Positions 1 through 47,502 of a stretch of 64,000 nt of DNA are shown here, in pieces. This DNA is from Bradyrhizobium sp. WSM1417. GTDB lineage: Bacteria > Pseudomonadota > Alphaproteobacteria > Rhizobiales > Xanthobacteraceae. Both the position numbers and the translations under genes were made by a program. Numbering within the stretch: position 1 is the first letter of the stretch; each line of letters opens with the position of its first letter. The notes under the pieces are model-generated. The model made no database searches, had not been told where the DNA came from, and saw only the letters and a program-made list of their open reading frames with translations. The stretch spans positions 350,501-414,500 of the forward strand of contig NZ_KI911783.1 in the NCBI RefSeq assembly GCF_000515415.1. The letters run 5' to 3'.

Positions 1-1648
1 GCGACGAGGTCTGATCCACGGCAGCGCCTCGACCGTTGGCGAGCACAAAGCTGCCATTGCCGCGGTTGCGCGCGACGCGATCCGGGAAGGCGTAGGCCAG
101 CATCAGACCGGTCGAGAGGTCACCTTCTCCGGCCGCCGTCTTCTCTGACGCCGCCACCTGCGCGGCCCAGCGCCGCGCGAGGTCGCGCGCGTTTGCGGCC
201 CGCGGGGAACGGTCGCGGCGGAACTGATCGCGCCGGTGCTCGAGATCGACGCTGTCGCCGCCGAGCCCGCGCTCGGTGATGATGGCGGCGATCTCGGCGG
301 CGGCTTCGCCCTCGCCGGCACGATGCGAATCCACGATCATGCGCGCGAGCCGCGGCGGCAGCGCCAGTGCGCGCAGGCTCTTGCCTTCCGCCGTGATGCG
401 GCCATCGGCATCGAGCGCGTTGAGCTCGGAGAGCAGGCTTTTGGCTTCCTTCCAGGCCGGCTGCGGCGGCGGGTCGAGAAACGACAGTGCGGCAGGGTCG
501 ACGACGCCCCATTGCGCGAGATCGAGCACCAGCGAGGACAGATCGGCGCTGAGGATCTCGGGCTGGGTGTAGGGCGCGAGCGAGGCTGTCTGAGGTTCGT
601 CCCAGAGCCGGTAGCAGACACCGGGCTCGGTGCGGCCGGCGCGGCCGCGGCGCTGGTCCGCTGCCGCGCGCGAGACGCGCACGGTCTCGAGCCGGGTCAG
701 GCCGATGTCGGGCTCGTAGCGCGGCACGCGGGCAAGACCGGAATCGACCACGATACGCACGCCCTCGATGGTCAGCGAGGTCTCGGCGATCGAGGTCGCC
801 AGCACCACCTTGCGCGTGCCCTTGGGCGCCGGCGAGATGGCACGATCCTGCACGGCAGCGTCGAGTGCGCCGAACAGCGGCACGATTTCAATCGAAGCGT
901 CCTGCACGCGCTCGCCGAGGAAATTCTGGGTGCGGCGAATTTCAGCGGCGCCCGGCAGGAACGCCAGCACCGAGCCGGCATCGGCGCGCAGCGTCGAGGC
1001 GATCGCATCCGCCATCTGCCGCTCGATCGGCGCGTCCGCCTTGCGGCCGAGATAGCGCGTCTCGACCGGAAAGGCGCGGCCCTCGCTTTCGACGACGGGC
1101 GCTTCGCCGAGCAATCTTGCCACGCGGGCGCCATCGAGCGTGGCCGACATCACGAGGATGCGCAAATCCTCGCGCAGGCCGGTTTGCGCATCGCGCGCGA
1201 GCGCGAGGCCCATGTCGGCATCGAGCGAACGCTCGTGGAATTCGTCGAACAGGACGGCGGCAATGCCGGAGAGTTCGGGATCGTCGAGGATCTGGCGGGT
1301 GAAGATGCCCTCCGTTACCACCTCGATGCGGGTCGCGCGCGAGATCTTCGACCCGAAGCGGACGCGATAGCCGACAGTCTCGCCGGCGCGTTCGCCGAGT
1401 GATTTAGCCATGCGGTCGGCGCTGGCGCGCGCCGCGATGCGCCGCGGCTCCAGCACGATGATCTTCTTGCCTTTGGCCCAGGGGGCATCGAGCAGCGCCA
1501 GTGGCACGCGCGTGGTCTTGCCGGCGCCCGGCGGCGCCACCAGCACGGCGGCATGATGCGCCTCCAGCGTGCGCGAGAGCTCGTCGAGCACGGCATCGAT
1601 CGGGAGGGGCGTGTCGAAACTGCGGGGCAAATATCTCGCTTCCGTCAT
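1..1648 (-). CDS. hrpB: ATP-dependent helicase HrpB, 5' portion (gene runs off the left edge)
   Basis: DEAH-box superfamily 2 helicase. About 549 N-terminal codons are inside the window; HrpB proteins are usually about 820 residues, so the C-terminal third is missing. The start is the ATG at 1646-1648 (MTEARYLPRSFDTPLPIDAV). Visible motifs are Walker A APPGAGKTT near residue 42, LEPRRIAARASADRMA (motif Ia region), and DEFHERS (motif II, DEAH class) near residue 135. The family probably acts on RNA or nucleoprotein, but its substrate is poorly defined. Long open frames on the opposite strand are codon-bias artefacts. Assignment to HrpB rather than another DEAH helicase is from overall N-terminal similarity. 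Confidence 0.9.
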   Translation of the reverse strand, partial: MTEARYLPRSFDTPLPIDAVLDELSRTLEAHHAAVLVAPPGAGKTTRVPLALLDAPWAKGKKIIVLEPRRIAARASADRMAKSLGERAGETVGYRVRFGSKISRATRIEVVTEGIFTRQILDDPELSGIAAVLFDEFHERSLDADMGLALARDAQTGLREDLRILVMSATLDGARVARLLGEAPVVESEGRAFPVETRYLGRKADAPIERQMADAIASTLRADAGSVLAFLPGAAEIRRTQNFLGERVQDASIEIVPLFGALDAAVQDRAISPAPKGTRKVVLATSIAETSLTIEGVRIVVDSGLARVPRYEPDIGLTRLETVRVSRAAADQRRGRAGRTEPGVCYRLWDEPQTASLAPYTQPEILSADLSSLVLDLAQWGVVDPAALSFLDPPPQPAWKEAKSLLSELNALDADGRITAEGKSLRALALPPRLARMIVDSHRAGEGEAAAEIAAIITERGLGGDSVDLEHRRDQFRRDRSPRAANARDLARRWAAQVAASEKTAAGEGDLSTGLMLAYAFPDRVARNRGNGSFVLANGRGAAVDQTSS

Positions 1649-1734
1649 CACCCGCCTTGTGCGCACCTTGCGCACTGGTGCGGGCGATCCAGTAAACTCG
1701 GATCCCGGCTATTGCGAAGATCGCGGATTACTGG

Positions 1735-1756
1735 ATACCCCGCCTTCGCGGGGTAT
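1735..1756. repeat. Short palindrome, ATACCCCG...CGGGGTAT
   Basis: An 8-bp perfect stem with a CCTTCG loop lies between hrpB and the end of the UDP-glucose dehydrogenase gene. It matches the style of palindromic intergenic repeats common in Bradyrhizobium (recalled, not checked). It could also act as a transcription terminator for the dehydrogenase gene, which ends at 1775 on the minus strand. Confidence 0.5.
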
Positions 1757-1774
1757 GACAATCATATGCCGCTA

Positions 1775-4352: not shown

Positions 4353-4367
4353 TCCTGCCTCCACATC

Positions 4368-4508
4368 GTCGTCCCGGCGAAGGCCGGGACCCATACCGCG
4401 TGATTAGTCGATAGATCGCGGTCTTCGTACTGCGGCACGATCGCTTAGCTGCCAGTCTTCGCCAAACTTCGCCCTGTGGTTATGGGTCCCGGCCTTCGCC
4501 GGGACGAC
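4368..4508. repeat. MITE-like inverted-repeat element, copy A (141 bp)
   Basis: Two inverted copies of a palindromic terminal sequence, GTCGTCCCGGCGAAGGCCGG at 4368 and its reverse complement ending at 4508, enclose about 85 bp. Read on the minus strand, the interior closely matches the interiors of the copies at 7656-7782 and 16040-16177 (shared GGCGAAGACT and ATCACGCGGTATGGG blocks). The element sits between the acyltransferase stop and polA. Confidence 0.85.
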
Positions 4509-4583
4509 ATTTGAGTGTGGGCTCCGGCCAGATTTCCCACATCCAAGGCTGTCAAAGGCCGCAAAAATTCATACATTGCGGCC

Positions 4584-7646: not shown

Positions 7647-7655
7647 TCGGACGGC

Positions 7656-7782
7656 GTCGTCCCGGCGAAGGCCGGGACCCATAACCACGGAGTCGAATTC
7701 GGCGAAGACTCGTCGTTCTGTACTCCGACCATCTGCGATCGATAGATCTCGCGGTATGGGTCCCGGCCTTCGCCGGGACGAC
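7656..7782. repeat. MITE-like inverted-repeat element, copy B (127 bp)
   Basis: Starts with GTCGTCCCGGCGAAGGCCGG and ends with the reverse complement at 7782. Its interior CCATAACCACGGAGTCGAAT...GGCGAAGACTCG...GATAGATCTCGCGGTATGGG matches copy C at 16040. It immediately follows polA and may terminate its transcript. Confidence 0.88.
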
Positions 7783-7886
7783 GCTGGAGGGACACGCACA
7801 AGCTGAATTGTCCTCCGTGCAATTGCGCGATGGCTCCACTGCGCCACGCATATTAGAACCATGCCGTCTCGCGCACCGGTTCAGCC

Positions 7887-10037: not shown

Positions 10038-10057
10038 GCGGCTAGACTTTCTCCGCC

Positions 10058-10140
10058 GTCGTGCCCGGGCTTGACCCGGGCATCCACGTCTTTGCCGCAC
10101 CAGAGATCGTGGACGGCCGGGACAAGCCCGGCCATGACGA
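10058..10140. repeat. GTCGTGCCCGGGCTTGACCC-type palindromic repeat
   Basis: Two palindromic arms, GCCCGGGCTTGACCCGGGC near 10063 and GGCCGGGACAAGCCCGGCC near 10114, in an inverted pair separated by about 20 bp. A repeat style distinct from the GTCCCGGC and CCTCTCCCC families. It lies directly after pyrE. Confidence 0.7.
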
Positions 10141-11062: not shown

Positions 11063-11083
11063 AGCCCCAACTCTCACCAAGTC

Positions 11084-11168
11084 GTCATTGCGAGCGAAGC
11101 GAAGCAATCCAGAATCTTTCCGGAGAGAGGCTCTGGATTGCTTCGTCGCAAGAGCTCCTCGCAATGAC
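11084..11168. repeat. GTCATTGCGAGCGAAGCGAA-type inverted repeat
   Basis: An 85-bp inverted pair: GTCATTGCGAGC...GAAGCAATCCAGA at the left and TCTGGATTGCTTC...GCTCCTCGCAATGAC at the right. It would fold into one long interrupted hairpin and lies between the convergent DUF2865 gene and the hypothetical at 11182. Similar sequences are common in alphaproteobacterial genomes (recalled). Confidence 0.75.
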
Positions 11169-11181
11169 GGAGGATGGTGGA

Positions 11182-11613
11182 TCACCGTCCGATGATCACG
11201 CCGATCACATTCGGCGCCGCCAGATATTTCTCCTCGATCGCCGCGCGCGCGGCGGCGCGGTTGTCTGCCGTGAGCAGGCCGCGCTTCTCGGCCAGGATCA
11301 TCCAGCAAAAACCCCACCAATCGGTGAGCATGCCCTGATCGTCGACGAGGTCATATCCCTGCTCGGCGGCGAAGATGCGCGCATGCGCTTCGTCCAGCGT
11401 GTCTAAGAACAGATGGTCCTCGGCCGAGAACAGATCGTCGCTGACGTCGTCGATGGTGTAGCCCCAGATCGACTGGCACACCGCATTGAACTCGCGGTCG
11501 AACTGGTCGTCGTCGACCGCGTAGCGCCGCGCCGCCTGATGCAGCCGCGACAGCGAGCGCGCGAAATCGGCGATCCTGGTGAGGGCAAACTGGTCGAAGG
11601 CAATGGTGGACAT
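11182..11613 (-). CDS. Conserved hypothetical acidic protein
   Basis: 143 residues from ATG 11611-11613, preceded by a GAGGA ribosome site about five bases upstream; an in-frame start at 11658 would add 15 residues. No signal peptide or membrane segment. The sequence is Asp-rich with aromatic segments (AVCQSIWGYTIDDVSDD, GMLTDWWGFCWMILAEKRG) and looks like a single small helical domain. I do not recognise the family. The ATG choice is supported by the ribosome site. Confidence 0.7.
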   Translation of the reverse strand: MSTIAFDQFALTRIADFARSLSRLHQAARRYAVDDDQFDREFNAVCQSIWGYTIDDVSDDLFSAEDHLFLDTLDEAHARIFAAEQGYDLVDDQGMLTDWWGFCWMILAEKRGLLTADNRAAARAAIEEKYLAAPNVIGVIIGR

Positions 11614-11727
11614 GTAGTCCTCGCGAAGTCTGACGGACGCTAGATATTGTGTCGGCAATGCGCCGAATCACAATGATATATCAAAGACTTGCTAAAGTGT
11701 TCTTAATTTGTTCTATTACTTGCTTAT

Positions 11728-12126
11728 GTCGTCCCGGCGAAGGCCGGGACCCATAACCACCGTTGCCAGACGTTTCCAGGATCGGTGCTCAGCGATGAAT
11801 GCACCAGCCGCGTACTACGTCTACATTCTCGCGAGCCGGCGGTACGGCACGCTATACATCGGCATCTGCAACGACCTGGGCAATCGATTATCACTACATC
11901 GTTCGGGACGTGGTTCGAAGTTCGTCAGCAAGTACGGCGTGACGCGGCTCGTCTATGTCGAGACATACGCAACTCCATCCGAAGCAATCGCACGCGAGAA
12001 GGCGCTGAAGGAATGGCACCGCGACTGGAAGATTCGCCTGATTGAGCAGGAAAATCCGGATTGGCGCGACTTGTCCCATCTCATCTGATAGCGGTGGTTA
12101 TGGGTCCCGGCCTTCGCCGGGACGAC
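11728..12126. mobile_element. Inverted-repeat element carrying a GIY-YIG gene (about 400 bp)
   Basis: A 35-bp perfect terminal inverted repeat starts GTCGTCCCGGCGAAGGCCGG at 11728-11762 and is mirrored at 12092-12126. Each arm is itself a palindrome followed by CCATAACCACCG. Only one gene lies inside, starting 32 bp from the left arm and ending 3 bp before the right arm. The outer 28 bp match the ends of gene-less elements at 4368, 7656 and 16040. No target duplication is obvious at the flanks. Confidence 0.75.
11795..12088 (+). CDS. GIY-YIG nuclease family protein (UPF0213/YhbQ type)
   Basis: A 97-residue single-domain protein starting at ATG 11795. Motif YYVYILASRRYGTLYIGICN gives the two-strand GIY-YIG core (YVY...YIG), followed by R(L)SLHRSG with the catalytic-type Arg and His, and by the helical EAIAREKALKEWHRDWKI segment with the Glu that usually ligates metal. 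The family is related to nicking endonucleases and SLX1-like enzymes; free-standing members lack known targets. An in-frame upstream stretch encoding SSRRRPGP is simply translation of the inverted repeat. The gene is boxed in by 35-bp inverted repeats, suggesting it is part of a mobile unit. Confidence 0.88.
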   Translation: MNAPAAYYVYILASRRYGTLYIGICNDLGNRLSLHRSGRGSKFVSKYGVTRLVYVETYATPSEAIAREKALKEWHRDWKIRLIEQENPDWRDLSHLI

Positions 12127-12152
12127 ACCGTTTTTGTAGCGCGCGATCGTCC

Positions 12153-15223: not shown

Positions 15224-16039
15224 ATGCACGCCAAGCTCCCGCACCCTTTCGACGATGCCACCCGCGTCACGGCCGGCGACTCCAGCTGGCAGGGACACAC
15301 CAGCGACGACTATTGGGCCTTTGTCGGCCCGTTCGGCGGCGTCACCGCTGCGACCATTTTGCGTGCGCTGATCGAGCATCCGGAACGTGCCGGCGATCCG
15401 CTGGCGCTCACCGTCAATTACTGCGCGCCGATCGCGAAGGGGCCGTTCGATCTGGATTTGCGGCTGGTGAAGGCCAATCGCTCCAGCCAGCACTGGAGCG
15501 TCGAACTGTCGCAAGGCGGCGGCGATGTCGCAACGCTCGCCACCGCCGTATTCGCCGAACGCCGGCCGTCCTGGGAGCACAGGGTGGCGCAATATCCTGA
15601 TGCAAAGCCGTTCGGAGAGACGATGCCGTTCCCGAAGATCGCGGCGTCCTGGGCCAACCAGTATGAATTCCGCTTCGTCGAGGGCGAGATGCGGATCGGC
15701 CCGCCCAAGCCCGAGCTCGCCGGCACTTACTCAAAGCTCTGGATCAGTGATCGCGAGCCGCGCAAGCTCGACATGCCGTCGCTGATGTCGATGTCGGACG
15801 CTTTCTTCGGCCGCATCTTCCACGCGCGGCGCGAGCTGGTGCCGTTCGGCACGGTATCGCTGACGACGTATTTCCACACCGACAGCGAAGAGCTCGCGGC
15901 CGAGGACATCACGCGCGTGCTGGCGACCGCCGATTCGAAGATCATGCACAAGAGCTACGCCGACCAGAACGCCGAGCTGTGGTCGCCGAACGGAAGGCTG
16001 CTCGCGACGACGACGCAGATCGCGTATTTCAAGGCTTGA
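15224..16039 (+). CDS. TesB-like acyl-CoA thioesterase (double hotdog)
   Basis: 271 residues with the thioesterase-superfamily layout of two hotdog domains. The first includes AFVGPFGGVTAATILRALIEHP and LTVNYCAPIAKGPFDLDLRL. The second includes SDAFFGRIFHARRELVPFGTVSLTTYFH and ADSKIMHKSYADQNAELWSPNGRLLATTTQ, where the Asp/Gln residues near the C-terminus match the catalytic region of TesB-like enzymes. It would hydrolyse acyl-CoA in the cytoplasm; chain length preference cannot be told. It follows glgP on the same strand after 95 bp, probably with its own promoter. Confidence 0.85.
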   Translation: MHAKLPHPFDDATRVTAGDSSWQGHTSDDYWAFVGPFGGVTAATILRALIEHPERAGDPLALTVNYCAPIAKGPFDLDLRLVKANRSSQHWSVELSQGGGDVATLATAVFAERRPSWEHRVAQYPDAKPFGETMPFPKIAASWANQYEFRFVEGEMRIGPPKPELAGTYSKLWISDREPRKLDMPSLMSMSDAFFGRIFHARRELVPFGTVSLTTYFHTDSEELAAEDITRVLATADSKIMHKSYADQNAELWSPNGRLLATTTQIAYFKA

Positions 16040-16177
16040 GTCGTCCCGGCGAAGGCCGGGACCCATAACCACAGGGTCGAGTTTGGCGAAGACTCGCAGT
16101 GATCTTCTTGGCCGGTATGCGCAACGTGCTCCTTCGATAGATCACGCGGTATGGGTCCCGGCCTTCGCCGGGACGAC
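16040..16177. repeat. MITE-like inverted-repeat element, copy C (138 bp)
   Basis: Starts GTCGTCCCGGCGAAGGCCGG one base after the thioesterase stop codon and ends with the complement at 16177. Interior blocks CCATAACCACAGGGTCGAGT, GGCGAAGACTCG and TCGATAGATCACGCGGTATG match copies A (inverted) and B. Confidence 0.88.
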
Positions 16178-16214
16178 ACTGAGTATGAGGTTTCCGCGAG
16201 TGACCACCAACAAG

Positions 16215-34122: not shown

Positions 34123-35745
34123 ATGTCCGAGCTTCCTGGATCTTGCCTGACTGAACGGACGCCGTCGGCGCCGACCATGCAGATGCTCGCGCACGCGCCG
34201 ATGAGCGACATCATCGATGCCTTGGCCGGCGGGCGGATCACCGCGAGGGCGCTGGCCGAATTCTATCTCGCGCGCATCGCGGCGTATGACCGCGACGGGC
34301 CTAAGCTCAACTCGGTCCGTGCACTCAATCCCGATGCGCTCGCGGGCACGCTCGACGGCACGAGGCCGTCGCCCCAGCGGCCGCTGGCGGGCGTCCCTAT
34401 CCTACTCAAGGACAATATCGCGACCGGGGACGAACAGCCGACCACGGCGGGCTCGCTGGCGCTGGAGAGTGCGCGCGCCAGGGATGACGCCACCATCGTC
34501 AAGCTGCTGCGGCGTGCCGGCGCGGTGATCCTGGGCAAGGCGAACCTGATGGAGTTCGCCAATATGCTCGCGATCGACATGCCCGCGGGCTATTCATCGC
34601 TCGGCGGCCAGGTGAAGAACCCCTATGCGCCCGCGCTGGACGATCGTGGGATTCCGGTGATGTCTCCAGGGGGATCGAGCTCGGGTTCGGCGGTCGCCGT
34701 GACAGCCGGCCTCTGCGCGGCCTCAATTGGCACGGAGACCTCAGGCTCGCTGCTGCATCCCGCCAGCCTGAACGGCCTCGTCACCGTGAAACCGACCGTC
34801 GGGCTGATCAGCCGCGCCGGCATCCTGCCGATTGCGCACAGCCAGGACACCGCCGGTCCGATGACGCGCACGGTGCGCGATGCCGCGATGCTGCTGAATG
34901 TGCTGGCTGCCAAGGACCCGCTCGACCCAGCGACGCAAGAGCAACGGCGGCCGGCCGACTACACCGCCGGCCTCGTCACCGACGCGATGAAGGGCGCGCG
35001 CATCGGCGTGCCGAGCGACCCCGCCGACCCGCTGAACGATTGCTATTACGGCAAGCTGCCGCCGAAGTCGGCCAAGCTGATGGCCGAGGTGATCAAGGTG
35101 CTGGAGGATCTCGGCGCCGTCATCGTGCAGGCCAGCATGCCGACACTTGGCTGGATCGGTGGACCGGGCACGACCATGGCCGTGCTCAACCGCAATCCGC
35201 TGAGCACCCACAAAGGCACGGTCGCAAGACCCCCGGTCGTCTTTCTGTACGAGATGAAGCACGGTCTCAATCTCTATCTGCGGGAATGGGCGACCAACAC
35301 TGACATCAAGACCATGGCCGACATCGTGGCCTTCAACGCAGCGAACGCCGACAATGCGCTCCGTTTCGGACAGGACCACTTCCTCGCCGCTGACCTGACC
35401 AGGGGCGATCTGAGCGAGCCCGAGTACAAGTCCGCACGTGCCATGGACCTGCTCTCCGCCAGGACGCGCGGAATGGACGCCTATATGAACCAGCACGAGC
35501 TCGACGCGGTGCTGTTCCCCGGCGCCTACGGCGCCATAATCGCCGCCAAGGCGGGCTATCCCAGCGTCATGGTGCCTGGCGGCTTCGTCTCGGGGACGAA
35601 CGACGGCAAAGACACGCCCGACTATCCGCTCGGCGTCACCTTCGCAGGGCGCGCCTGGAGCGAGCACAAGCTGCTGCGTCTGGCGTATGCCTTCGAGCAA
35701 GCAACGAACGCACGCAAGCCGCCGCCGGGTTTGCCCGAGCTGTGA
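34123..35745 (+). CDS. Amidase signature family hydrolase
   Basis: 540 residues from ATG 34123, preceded by GAGGAA about six bases upstream; an in-frame GTG at 34081 lies in the shared leader and is rejected. The Ser-cisSer-Lys triad is intact: Lys in PILLKDNIATG, cis-Ser in SPGGSSSGSAVAV, nucleophile Ser in GTETSGSLLHPAS. These enzymes hydrolyse C-N bonds of amides, ureas or related compounds; the substrate is not predictable. There is no signal peptide. The downstream truncated dehydrogenase shares its leader, which suggests common control. Confidence 0.92.
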   Translation: MSELPGSCLTERTPSAPTMQMLAHAPMSDIIDALAGGRITARALAEFYLARIAAYDRDGPKLNSVRALNPDALAGTLDGTRPSPQRPLAGVPILLKDNIATGDEQPTTAGSLALESARARDDATIVKLLRRAGAVILGKANLMEFANMLAIDMPAGYSSLGGQVKNPYAPALDDRGIPVMSPGGSSSGSAVAVTAGLCAASIGTETSGSLLHPASLNGLVTVKPTVGLISRAGILPIAHSQDTAGPMTRTVRDAAMLLNVLAAKDPLDPATQEQRRPADYTAGLVTDAMKGARIGVPSDPADPLNDCYYGKLPPKSAKLMAEVIKVLEDLGAVIVQASMPTLGWIGGPGTTMAVLNRNPLSTHKGTVARPPVVFLYEMKHGLNLYLREWATNTDIKTMADIVAFNAANADNALRFGQDHFLAADLTRGDLSEPEYKSARAMDLLSARTRGMDAYMNQHELDAVLFPGAYGAIIAAKAGYPSVMVPGGFVSGTNDGKDTPDYPLGVTFAGRAWSEHKLLRLAYAFEQATNARKPPPGLPEL

Positions 35746-46685: not shown

Positions 46686-46711
46686 CCATACTGGCGGTCG
46701 CACCCTTCGCC

Positions 46712-46740
46712 GTCGTCCTGGCGAAAGCCAGGACCCATAC
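46712..46740. repeat. Single GTCCTGGC-type palindromic arm
   Basis: GTCGTCCTGGCGAAAGCCAG with CCATACCGCGTGATC after it resembles the left arm and interior of the inverted-repeat elements at 7656 and 16040, but with the stem CCTGGC/GCCAGG in place of CCCGGC/GCCGGG. The partner arm is decayed (CCCCGGGGTTAATGG near 46815). The 46686-46917 gap otherwise shows no gene. Confidence 0.7.
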
Positions 46741-47178: not shown

Positions 47179-47327
47179 GGATTACTCCTGATCAGATGCG
47201 TTTACGCCGCTAAGAACGACCGGCATCACGGAGCGTTCCGGGAGCAGCGGTCACGAAGACGCGCAAATCTTCGGTGGTTGCGGCGATTTGGTGGCGGTTC
47301 CCGCGCTGTCGCCATCGCTCTCCACCC

Positions 47328-47447
47328 TCGTCCTGGCGAAAAGCCAGGACCAATTACCCAGGGAGGAGTGGTGGGGGCAGATCGTCACCACCAGCATTCG
47401 CAAAACAGCAGACGGTGGCTATGGGTCCTGGCCTTCGCCAGGACGAC
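47328..47447. repeat. Inverted-repeat element with GTCCTGGC arms, copy D (120 bp)
   Basis: Left arm GTCCTGGCGAAAAGCCAGGA at 47330 and right arm ending GGACGAC at 47447 (GTCCTGGCCTTCGCCAGGAC at 47425-47444). Same layout as copies A-C, but the stem has T:A in place of one C:G pair on both sides, keeping pairing. The 324-bp gap 47179-47502 holds this and no gene. Confidence 0.8.
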
Positions 47448-47502
47448 ATCGGGGAGGCATATCGCTTCAACGATTCTCACGGCCACGACGCGCGAAACGC
47501 CG

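Follow-up and report, generated by a model that had tools for sequence, protein, structure and literature searches.

Why would a small nuclease gene lie, with hardly any DNA to spare, between two inverted copies of a palindromic repeat that elsewhere in the same genome occurs without it? The locus that raises this question is part of the 64,000-nucleotide stretch of DNA analysed here (the window; G000:C1:350501-414500, where G000 is a single-contig genome of 8.05 Mb). In a unit of 401 bp (11727..12127), two inverted repetitive extragenic palindromes (REPs) of the CGTC kind enclose a GIY-YIG nuclease gene. An initial annotation of the window had likened this arrangement to that of REPs and their RAYT transposases, with a GIY-YIG nuclease in place of the transposase, and the likeness has held up: flanking of the gene, matching of gene clade to REP type and abundance of the repeats all agree with it across genomes.

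The REP-gene-REP unit and the gene-less dimers

The ends of the unit form a perfect inverted repeat of 36 bp (11727-11762 and 12092-12127), one more than the 35 bp first given for it; extended to 44 nt, the arms match at 41 of 44 positions. Each REP of the unit is a 27-bp palindrome. The left one (11727..11753, + strand) consists of a TGTC tag, a GTCCCGGC stem, a 4-nt loop and a CCA tail, and the right one (12101..12127, − strand) is an inverted copy of the left-REP sequence. Between them lies a gene of 97 codons (11795..12088, + strand), whose ATG at 11795 is 32 bp inward of the left arm and whose stop codon (12086-12088) falls 3 bp short of the right arm, spacings that the initial annotation had already reported.

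PF01541 (E=2.5e-16) is the only domain match of the encoded protein, NCBIfam yielded no match to it, and its nearest named proteins are from Bradyrhizobium. This domain, the motif positions and the fold place it in the GIY-YIG superfamily; an AF2 model with a mean pLDDT of 91 has UPF0213 BH0048 and Slx1 as its nearest folds. Like the UPF0213 proteins (PDB 1zg2, 1ywl), its best PDB matches both by sequence and by Foldseek, it is a single-domain GIY-YIG protein of about 95 residues; those proteins have no known link with repeats. We dropped the idea that UPF0213 is a distinct, REP-free group because BH0048, the UPF0213 protein of solved structure (1zg2), is matched not only by the protein of the window (1.1e-7) but also by a control protein of that genome whose gene is REP-free (9e-7), and the label therefore fails to separate the two groups. 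In fold and catalytic positions the protein also resembles the GIY-YIG homing endonuclease I-TevI as well as Slx1, which cuts branched DNA. Unlike those systems, however, that of the window has neither an intron nor a separate DNA-binding domain, and its gene is tied to dispersed palindromes whereas GIY-YIG homing endonucleases are tied to one homing site.

The residues Y10, Y21, R31, H35, E68 and N87, which we take to be the catalytic positions of the superfamily, are conserved in 157 (Y10), 160 (Y21), 159 (R31, H35 and E68 each) and 158 (N87) of 160 family proteins. Among family genes the median dN/dS is 0.078, and the ratio is below 1 in all 470 usable pairs (from 678). Judged by these ratios the family genes are under purifying selection, in contrast to RAYT genes, which are described as fast-evolving (PMC2817692).

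Gene-less dimers built from the same REP type as the gene unit lie at 4367..4509, 7655..7783 and 16039..16178, where the initial annotation had seen gene-less elements with the ends of the unit (at 4368, 7656 and 16040), and its variant near 47328 corresponds to a dimer of the GTCCTGGC type (47326..47448) whose left REP carries a CCTC tag. In the relatives G007 and G010 a gene is framed by GTCCTGGC-type REPs; no such gene was found in the window's genome. The window also contains a lone GTCCTGGC-type REP (46711..46737, + strand), dimers of further CGTC types at 1643..1760 (ATCACCCGC / ATACCCCGC) and 10057..10139 (GTGCCCGGG / ATGGCCGGG) and, near the gene unit, a pair of CGTCATTGCGAGG-type repeats at about 11063-11182, between a gene of 271 and one of 157 codons.

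Throughout the 8.05-Mb genome the pattern CGTCCCGGCNNNNGCCGGGACCCATA, of 26 bases, occurs in 74 exact copies, as against 0 for the reversed pattern. Fifty of these 74 strict REPs are taken up by 25 pairs with the tags outside; the other strict neighbours within 500 bp amount to one opposite (−/+) pair and zero same-strand pairs. The start-to-start distance is 87-112 bp in 24 of the 25 tags-outside pairs and 369 bp in the 25th, which is the gene unit. What the gene-less dimers have in common with that unit is only the REP and a tail of roughly 8-10 bp (e.g. CCATAACCAC) at one or both ends; between the ends the dimers carry a spacer sequence of their own, which is conserved from one dimer to another. 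The proposal that the gene-less elements derive from the gene unit is weakened by this, since the spacers are not remnants of the gene and the dimers are not internal deletions of the unit. The type-A REPs are concentrated in a single part of the chromosome: 64 of the 74 strict copies are found before 1.8 Mb or after 7.0 Mb, which together make up about 35% of the contig, and the position of the gene is 0.36 Mb. No PF01797 gene was found in this genome, which carries 80 type-A REPs.

These repeats can be placed in the CGTC REP superfamily, which is apparently without a dedicated transposase according to the parts of Di Nocera et al. (2013, PMC3733652) drawn on here; those parts also record CGTC-1 in Bradyrhizobium and assign the Neisseria repeat dRS3 to it. 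The window REPs have the CGTC/TGTC or CCTC tag, the 8-bp stem, the 4-nt loop and the CCA tail described there, and the window dimers have the outward tags (the HH form) and conserved spacers (PMC3733652). With its 74 strict-pattern copies and 25 inverted pairs the window repeat fits family 1 of these CGTC REPs by its sequence, and it differs from the description at the start of the stem: A-T pairs are said to stand "almost invariably" at its first and second positions (PMC3733652), and the window type has G-C at position 1 and T-A at position 2. A further difference is that the same parts of that paper report no associated enzyme gene, whereas the window REPs frame a GIY-YIG gene.

Association of the gene family with its repeats

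To what extent this pairing is general was assessed with the window protein as query in 41 genomes, of which 35 were positive at E 0.001, weak matches included. The loci fetched comprised 70 family genes (64-216 bits) and, as controls, 20 weaker GIY-YIG matches (22-32 bits); a strict REP had to possess a GTC tag, at least 8 stem pairs and a CCA tail and to lie no more than 350 bp from the gene. By this measure 49 of the 70 family genes have a strict CGTC REP beside them, 37 of them on both sides, compared with none of the 20 controls. A sample of 150 Pseudomonadota genomes, 38 of them positive at E 1e-12, gave strict REPs at 18 of 30 loci (9 on both sides), and named loci among the matches listed gave 58 of 80 (42 on both sides), including loci from Rhodopseudomonas, Tardiphaga, Nitrobacter, Microvirga and Methylobacterium. 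REPs on both sides were also found in metagenome-assembled genomes labelled Marinimicrobia, Parcubacteria, Omnitrophota, Deltaproteobacteria and Calditrichaeota, labels that may reflect binning errors.

Pooling these sets (70 + 28 + 80 = 178 loci, the 80 being the named loci among the matches listed, and L131 and L132 being omitted as repeats of L035 and L055) left 175 family genes after removal of identical gene sequences. A strict CGTC REP adjoins 121 of these 175, and 88 have one on both sides. Random ORFs and random slots, drawn from arbitrary stretches that total 400 kb in ten of the 41 genomes, have a strict REP in 15 of 312 and 176 of 7560 cases, respectively, and in neither group does one lie on both sides; among Y1_Tnp genes of the same 41 genomes the strict count is 0 of 20. 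The initial annotation had suggested asking whether such genes are flanked by these repeats beyond chance, and they are (88/175 on both sides as against 0/312 random ORFs). What it had named as refutation, fixed synteny with unrelated flanks, is not what we see: synteny is largely fixed, yet what flanks the gene is a REP type that goes with it.

A score for inverted repeats between the two flanks, computed for 174 of the 175 genes, reached 40 or more in 133 family genes compared with 2 of 312 random ORFs. Strong flanking inverted repeats are present at 42 of the 54 family genes that lack a strict REP, and 12 of the 175 have neither. The 20 weaker controls score 0 with the strict finder and 5 by the inverted-repeat score: fifteen have neither feature, and the five others (L116 and L120-L123, of a longer kind of about 120 codons) are framed by another repeat, CCGTCATCCTGAGG...CCTCGAAGGATG. 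Flanking inverted repeats were found at 12 of 16 Y1_Tnp genes (4 of the 20, near contig ends, are left out of this count), as expected for REPtrons.

A plasmid collection contains 33 matching records, and eight loci were inspected. The Azospirillum lipoferum gene lies between sufB and sufC with CGTC REP dimers on both sides, the Aeromonas caviae relative has CGTC REPs on both sides, the Novosphingobium relative a CGTC palindrome pair, the S. meliloti relative CTC-tagged palindromes and that of Neisseria gonorrhoeae ATTCCCGC-type repeats, which we read as dRS3. Other repeats accompany the relatives in Planktothrix and Spirosoma, and the Rhizobium tumorigenes copy inspected, one of eight similar Rhizobium plasmid matches, has no adjoining REP. 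On four Sphingobium plasmids the gene is enclosed by a pair of CGTC palindromes whose tail is CCC. No REP was recognised in a 50-kb stretch of S. meliloti pSymB, and phage records gave no match. The Planktothrix relative (L289) is situated between an MmeI-like gene and the DISARM gene drmA, amid TGTCATTCTGAG repeats. A second GIY-YIG clade has CGTCATTGCGAGG...GAAGCAATCCAG flanks, another CGTC-tagged repeat (L098, L099, L102, L104 and G000:C1:7091536-7091793).

Not only the presence but also the type of the repeat goes with the gene. Protein distance and stem distance are correlated between genomes (Mantel r=0.45, p=0.001; 119 of the 121 typed genes, two being too short). When REP labels were permuted only between paralogues within a genome, so that species ancestry drops out, 24 of 34 genes in 14 genomes matched the REP type of their nearest relative elsewhere, compared with 10.2 expected (p=0.0002). 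On a poorly resolved protein tree of 162 of the 175 genes, 126 of them labelled, the REP labels require 19 changes as against a mean of 75.1 after shuffling, and none of 200 shuffles was as low; the changes of label "A" within this figure are inflated because that label also took in a second repeat (the GTGTCCCGGAC type). One shared site has a type-D flanking REP in 9 genomes and a type-F one in 12, a split that corresponds to one change on the protein tree, at a branch with next to no support. These sequence comparisons show that REP type tracks protein clade.

The number of REPs was compared among 25 genomes of the genus, with gene types assigned by hand. The p-values, which are optimistic because the genomes are related, were 1.7e-4 for type A (median 71.5 REPs in the 8 genomes that carry a type-A gene, intact or damaged, and 5 in the 17 without), 1.1e-3 for type B (51 with and 1 without the gene), 0.016 for E1 (8 and 3) and 0.008 for F (5 and 1), the last two pairs having been chosen before counting. 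The cross-pairs gave p=0.60 and 0.92 for A/B and 0.21 and 0.91 for E1/F. After subtraction of the flanking copies (2 each, 4 for B) the values became 1.9e-4 for A, 3.5e-3 for B, 0.025 for F and 0.088 for E1, the last not significant. Taken together, the counts in these genome sequences show cognate REPs to be commoner where the matching gene is present for all four pairs, weakly so for E1 after subtraction. As we read the damaged copies, that of G017 is frameshifted near its end, that of G007 is frameshifted, that of G009 is degraded and that of G014 is an inverted fragment at a contig end. A type-A gene was not found in G005, G012 and G020, despite 54, 51 and 36 type-A REPs, respectively.

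Stability of the gene and turnover of its repeats

The initial annotation had taken the gene unit for an autonomous element and the gene-less ones for its non-autonomous derivatives. The REP-framed anatomy and the shared ends on which this rested are as described; the copies, however, for the most part occupy shared sites. Of the 155 between-genome protein pairs that are at least 85% identical, 134 have a flank site in common and 21 do not (e.g. L040 with L041 and L044), and the 175 family genes occupy 90 flank sites over many genera. Judged from this positional evidence, the gene itself is for the most part passed on without a change of position. That the gene hops between genomes, an idea drawn from its scattered copies, was dropped since these copies are mostly at shared sites.

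The window copy, intact or damaged, recurs at the same site in at least seven other genomes by flank clustering (G003, G004, G007, G009, G010, G017 and G150), and also in G014. Its neighbour, the 157-codon gene, is present in 15 other genomes and is adjoined by the unit or its remains in six of them (G003, G004, G007, G009, G010, G014) and by other sequence in nine. In a search of 265 members of the genus (193 positive), some of the matches listed span the unit and others stop some 12-14 bases before it. By its flanks, then, the window copy sits at an old site. At this site the REP type is GTCCCGGC in G000, GCCCCGGC in G004 and GTCCTGGC in G007 and G010; both ends mostly agree, those of G003 being different (GTCCCGGC and GCCCCGGC). 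At the contig end in G014 (L182 / L197) the gene fragment lies reversed beside the REP at the shared site, as if inverted.

Stems also differ at the slot of the 7655 dimer. In G008 and G005, placed by their flanks, and in G375, placed by position only, the dimers in this slot have spacers that are 80-84% identical and stems that are GTCCCGGC, GTTCCTGC/GTCCCTGC and GTCCCCGC; the window's own dimer has a different spacer (67-69%). Differing stems over similar spacers suggest that stems were converted in place; more than one insertion into the slot may also account for them. The intergenic slots of the 4367-4509 and 7655-7783 dimers contain, in other species, different REP types, other repeats or nothing (L191-L205, L325-L342). 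When 43 REP dimers were followed through 22 genomes at orthologous positions, neither a clean empty site nor a target duplication was found among the matches listed, and the four regions compared on Sphingobium plasmids had no clean ends or duplication; such features are unreadable here because intergenic DNA turns over too fast and the flanks are too diverged. On the Sphingobium plasmids, a CCGTTCGGGCTGAGCCTGTCGAAG inverted repeat near 35575 (about 146 bp extra) is present in L343 and L346 and absent in L344 and L345.

A proposed nuclease for CGTC REPs

The link between RAYTs and their REPs rests, in the parts of Nunvar et al. (2010, PMC2817692) drawn on here, on inverted flanking REPs, coevolution and a correlation with the abundance of cognate REPs. 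Each has its counterpart in the present system (TnpA-REP and REPtrons being the comparison): the window gene lies between two inverted REPs, gene and REP type coevolve in the family, and presence of the gene goes with cognate REP abundance (PMC2817692). The enzyme and the tag are different, a GIY-YIG protein (PF01541) here and an HUH tyrosine (Y1) transposase in RAYTs, with CGTC/TGTC here and GTAG there. Because these three findings recur, we consider the GIY-YIG family to be probably the dedicated nuclease of CGTC REPs, promoting their spread or their uniformity; some action of the enzyme on the cognate REP, of whatever kind, seems to us very likely.

As to how it might act, we infer binding, cutting and a spread driven by cutting. 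The small single-domain nuclease would recognise the folded cognate palindrome, as a hairpin or cruciform, and cut at or near the CGTC end of the REP; host repair would then make copies of REP dimers elsewhere or keep the copies uniform, with the gene acting in trans like a domesticated RAYT. GIY-YIG enzymes are not known to form a covalent tyrosine link when they hydrolyse DNA, and for this reason homing-like copying through break repair or gene conversion would be likelier than strand transfer of the RAYT type.

It is also conceivable, if unlikely, that the host keeps the nuclease for housekeeping, to resolve REP cruciforms and hairpins in the manner of Slx1 without any spreading, and that the enzyme is retained in REP-rich genomes and lost from REP-poor ones. 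A fold close to Slx1, purifying selection and mostly fixed synteny would suit such a host function, and the correlation between gene and REP abundance has no direction of its own; but framing of the gene by its own matching REP type, the matching of clade to stem and the genomes with 36-54 type-A REPs and no gene would all be left unexplained. The view of the initial annotation, a true transposon in which the nuclease moves the REP-gene-REP unit (autonomous) together with REP dimers (non-autonomous), we regard as quite improbable. It draws on the anatomy of the unit, on gene-less dimers with the same ends, on the 90 flank sites for 175 genes, on the 21 close pairs at different sites and on the Azospirillum lipoferum gene lodged between sufB and sufC, and it is opposed by the 134 of 155 close pairs at a shared site, by gene-less spacers that are not gene-derived, by the failure to find a clean-ended empty site and by the chemistry of GIY-YIG enzymes, which is not known to yield a covalent intermediate.

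We give very little credence to the gene as a mere passenger, with REPs moved by another enzyme gathering in permissive intergenic DNA and gene and repeat matching through shared ancestry only. The REPs are indeed intergenic, and gene and REP type are both common to related genomes, but REPs lie on both sides of 88 of 175 family genes and of none of the 312 random ORFs or 20 weaker GIY-YIG matches, the within-genome permutation controls for ancestry, and the window's genome has no Y1 transposase.

In a wider and more tentative form, to which we lend slightly less than even belief, the CGTC REP superfamily as a whole, from rhizobia to Neisseria dRS3 and in several other phyla, might be both spread and kept uniform by GIY-YIG nucleases that act in trans, cutting hairpins that break repair then mends. 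Such a process would be homing-like and need no transposase, enzyme and palindrome would coevolve closely, and several nuclease clades would each own one repeat family, CGTCATTGCGAGG and CGTCATCCTGAGG included. None of the open-licence PMC papers among the matches listed links GIY-YIG nucleases with repetitive extragenic palindromic repeats; a rayt gene and a GIY-YIG gene appear in one gene list, unlinked (PMC9465073). Which enzyme mobilises CGTC REPs, if any, is left open in the parts of Di Nocera et al. (2013, PMC3733652) used here. The present analysis names a concrete enzyme family for them, and as their missing partner the GIY-YIG family is a strong candidate. Specificity can readily be tested on natural, matched pairs of gene and repeat whose stems are set apart by one or two bases. 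If the proposal is true, REP-dedicated enzymes would have evolved on two or more occasions, from families that are unrelated; a common gene whose annotation says no more than "GIY-YIG nuclease family protein" would acquire a function; and a nuclease that is guided by hairpins, and whose specificity can be read, would become available.
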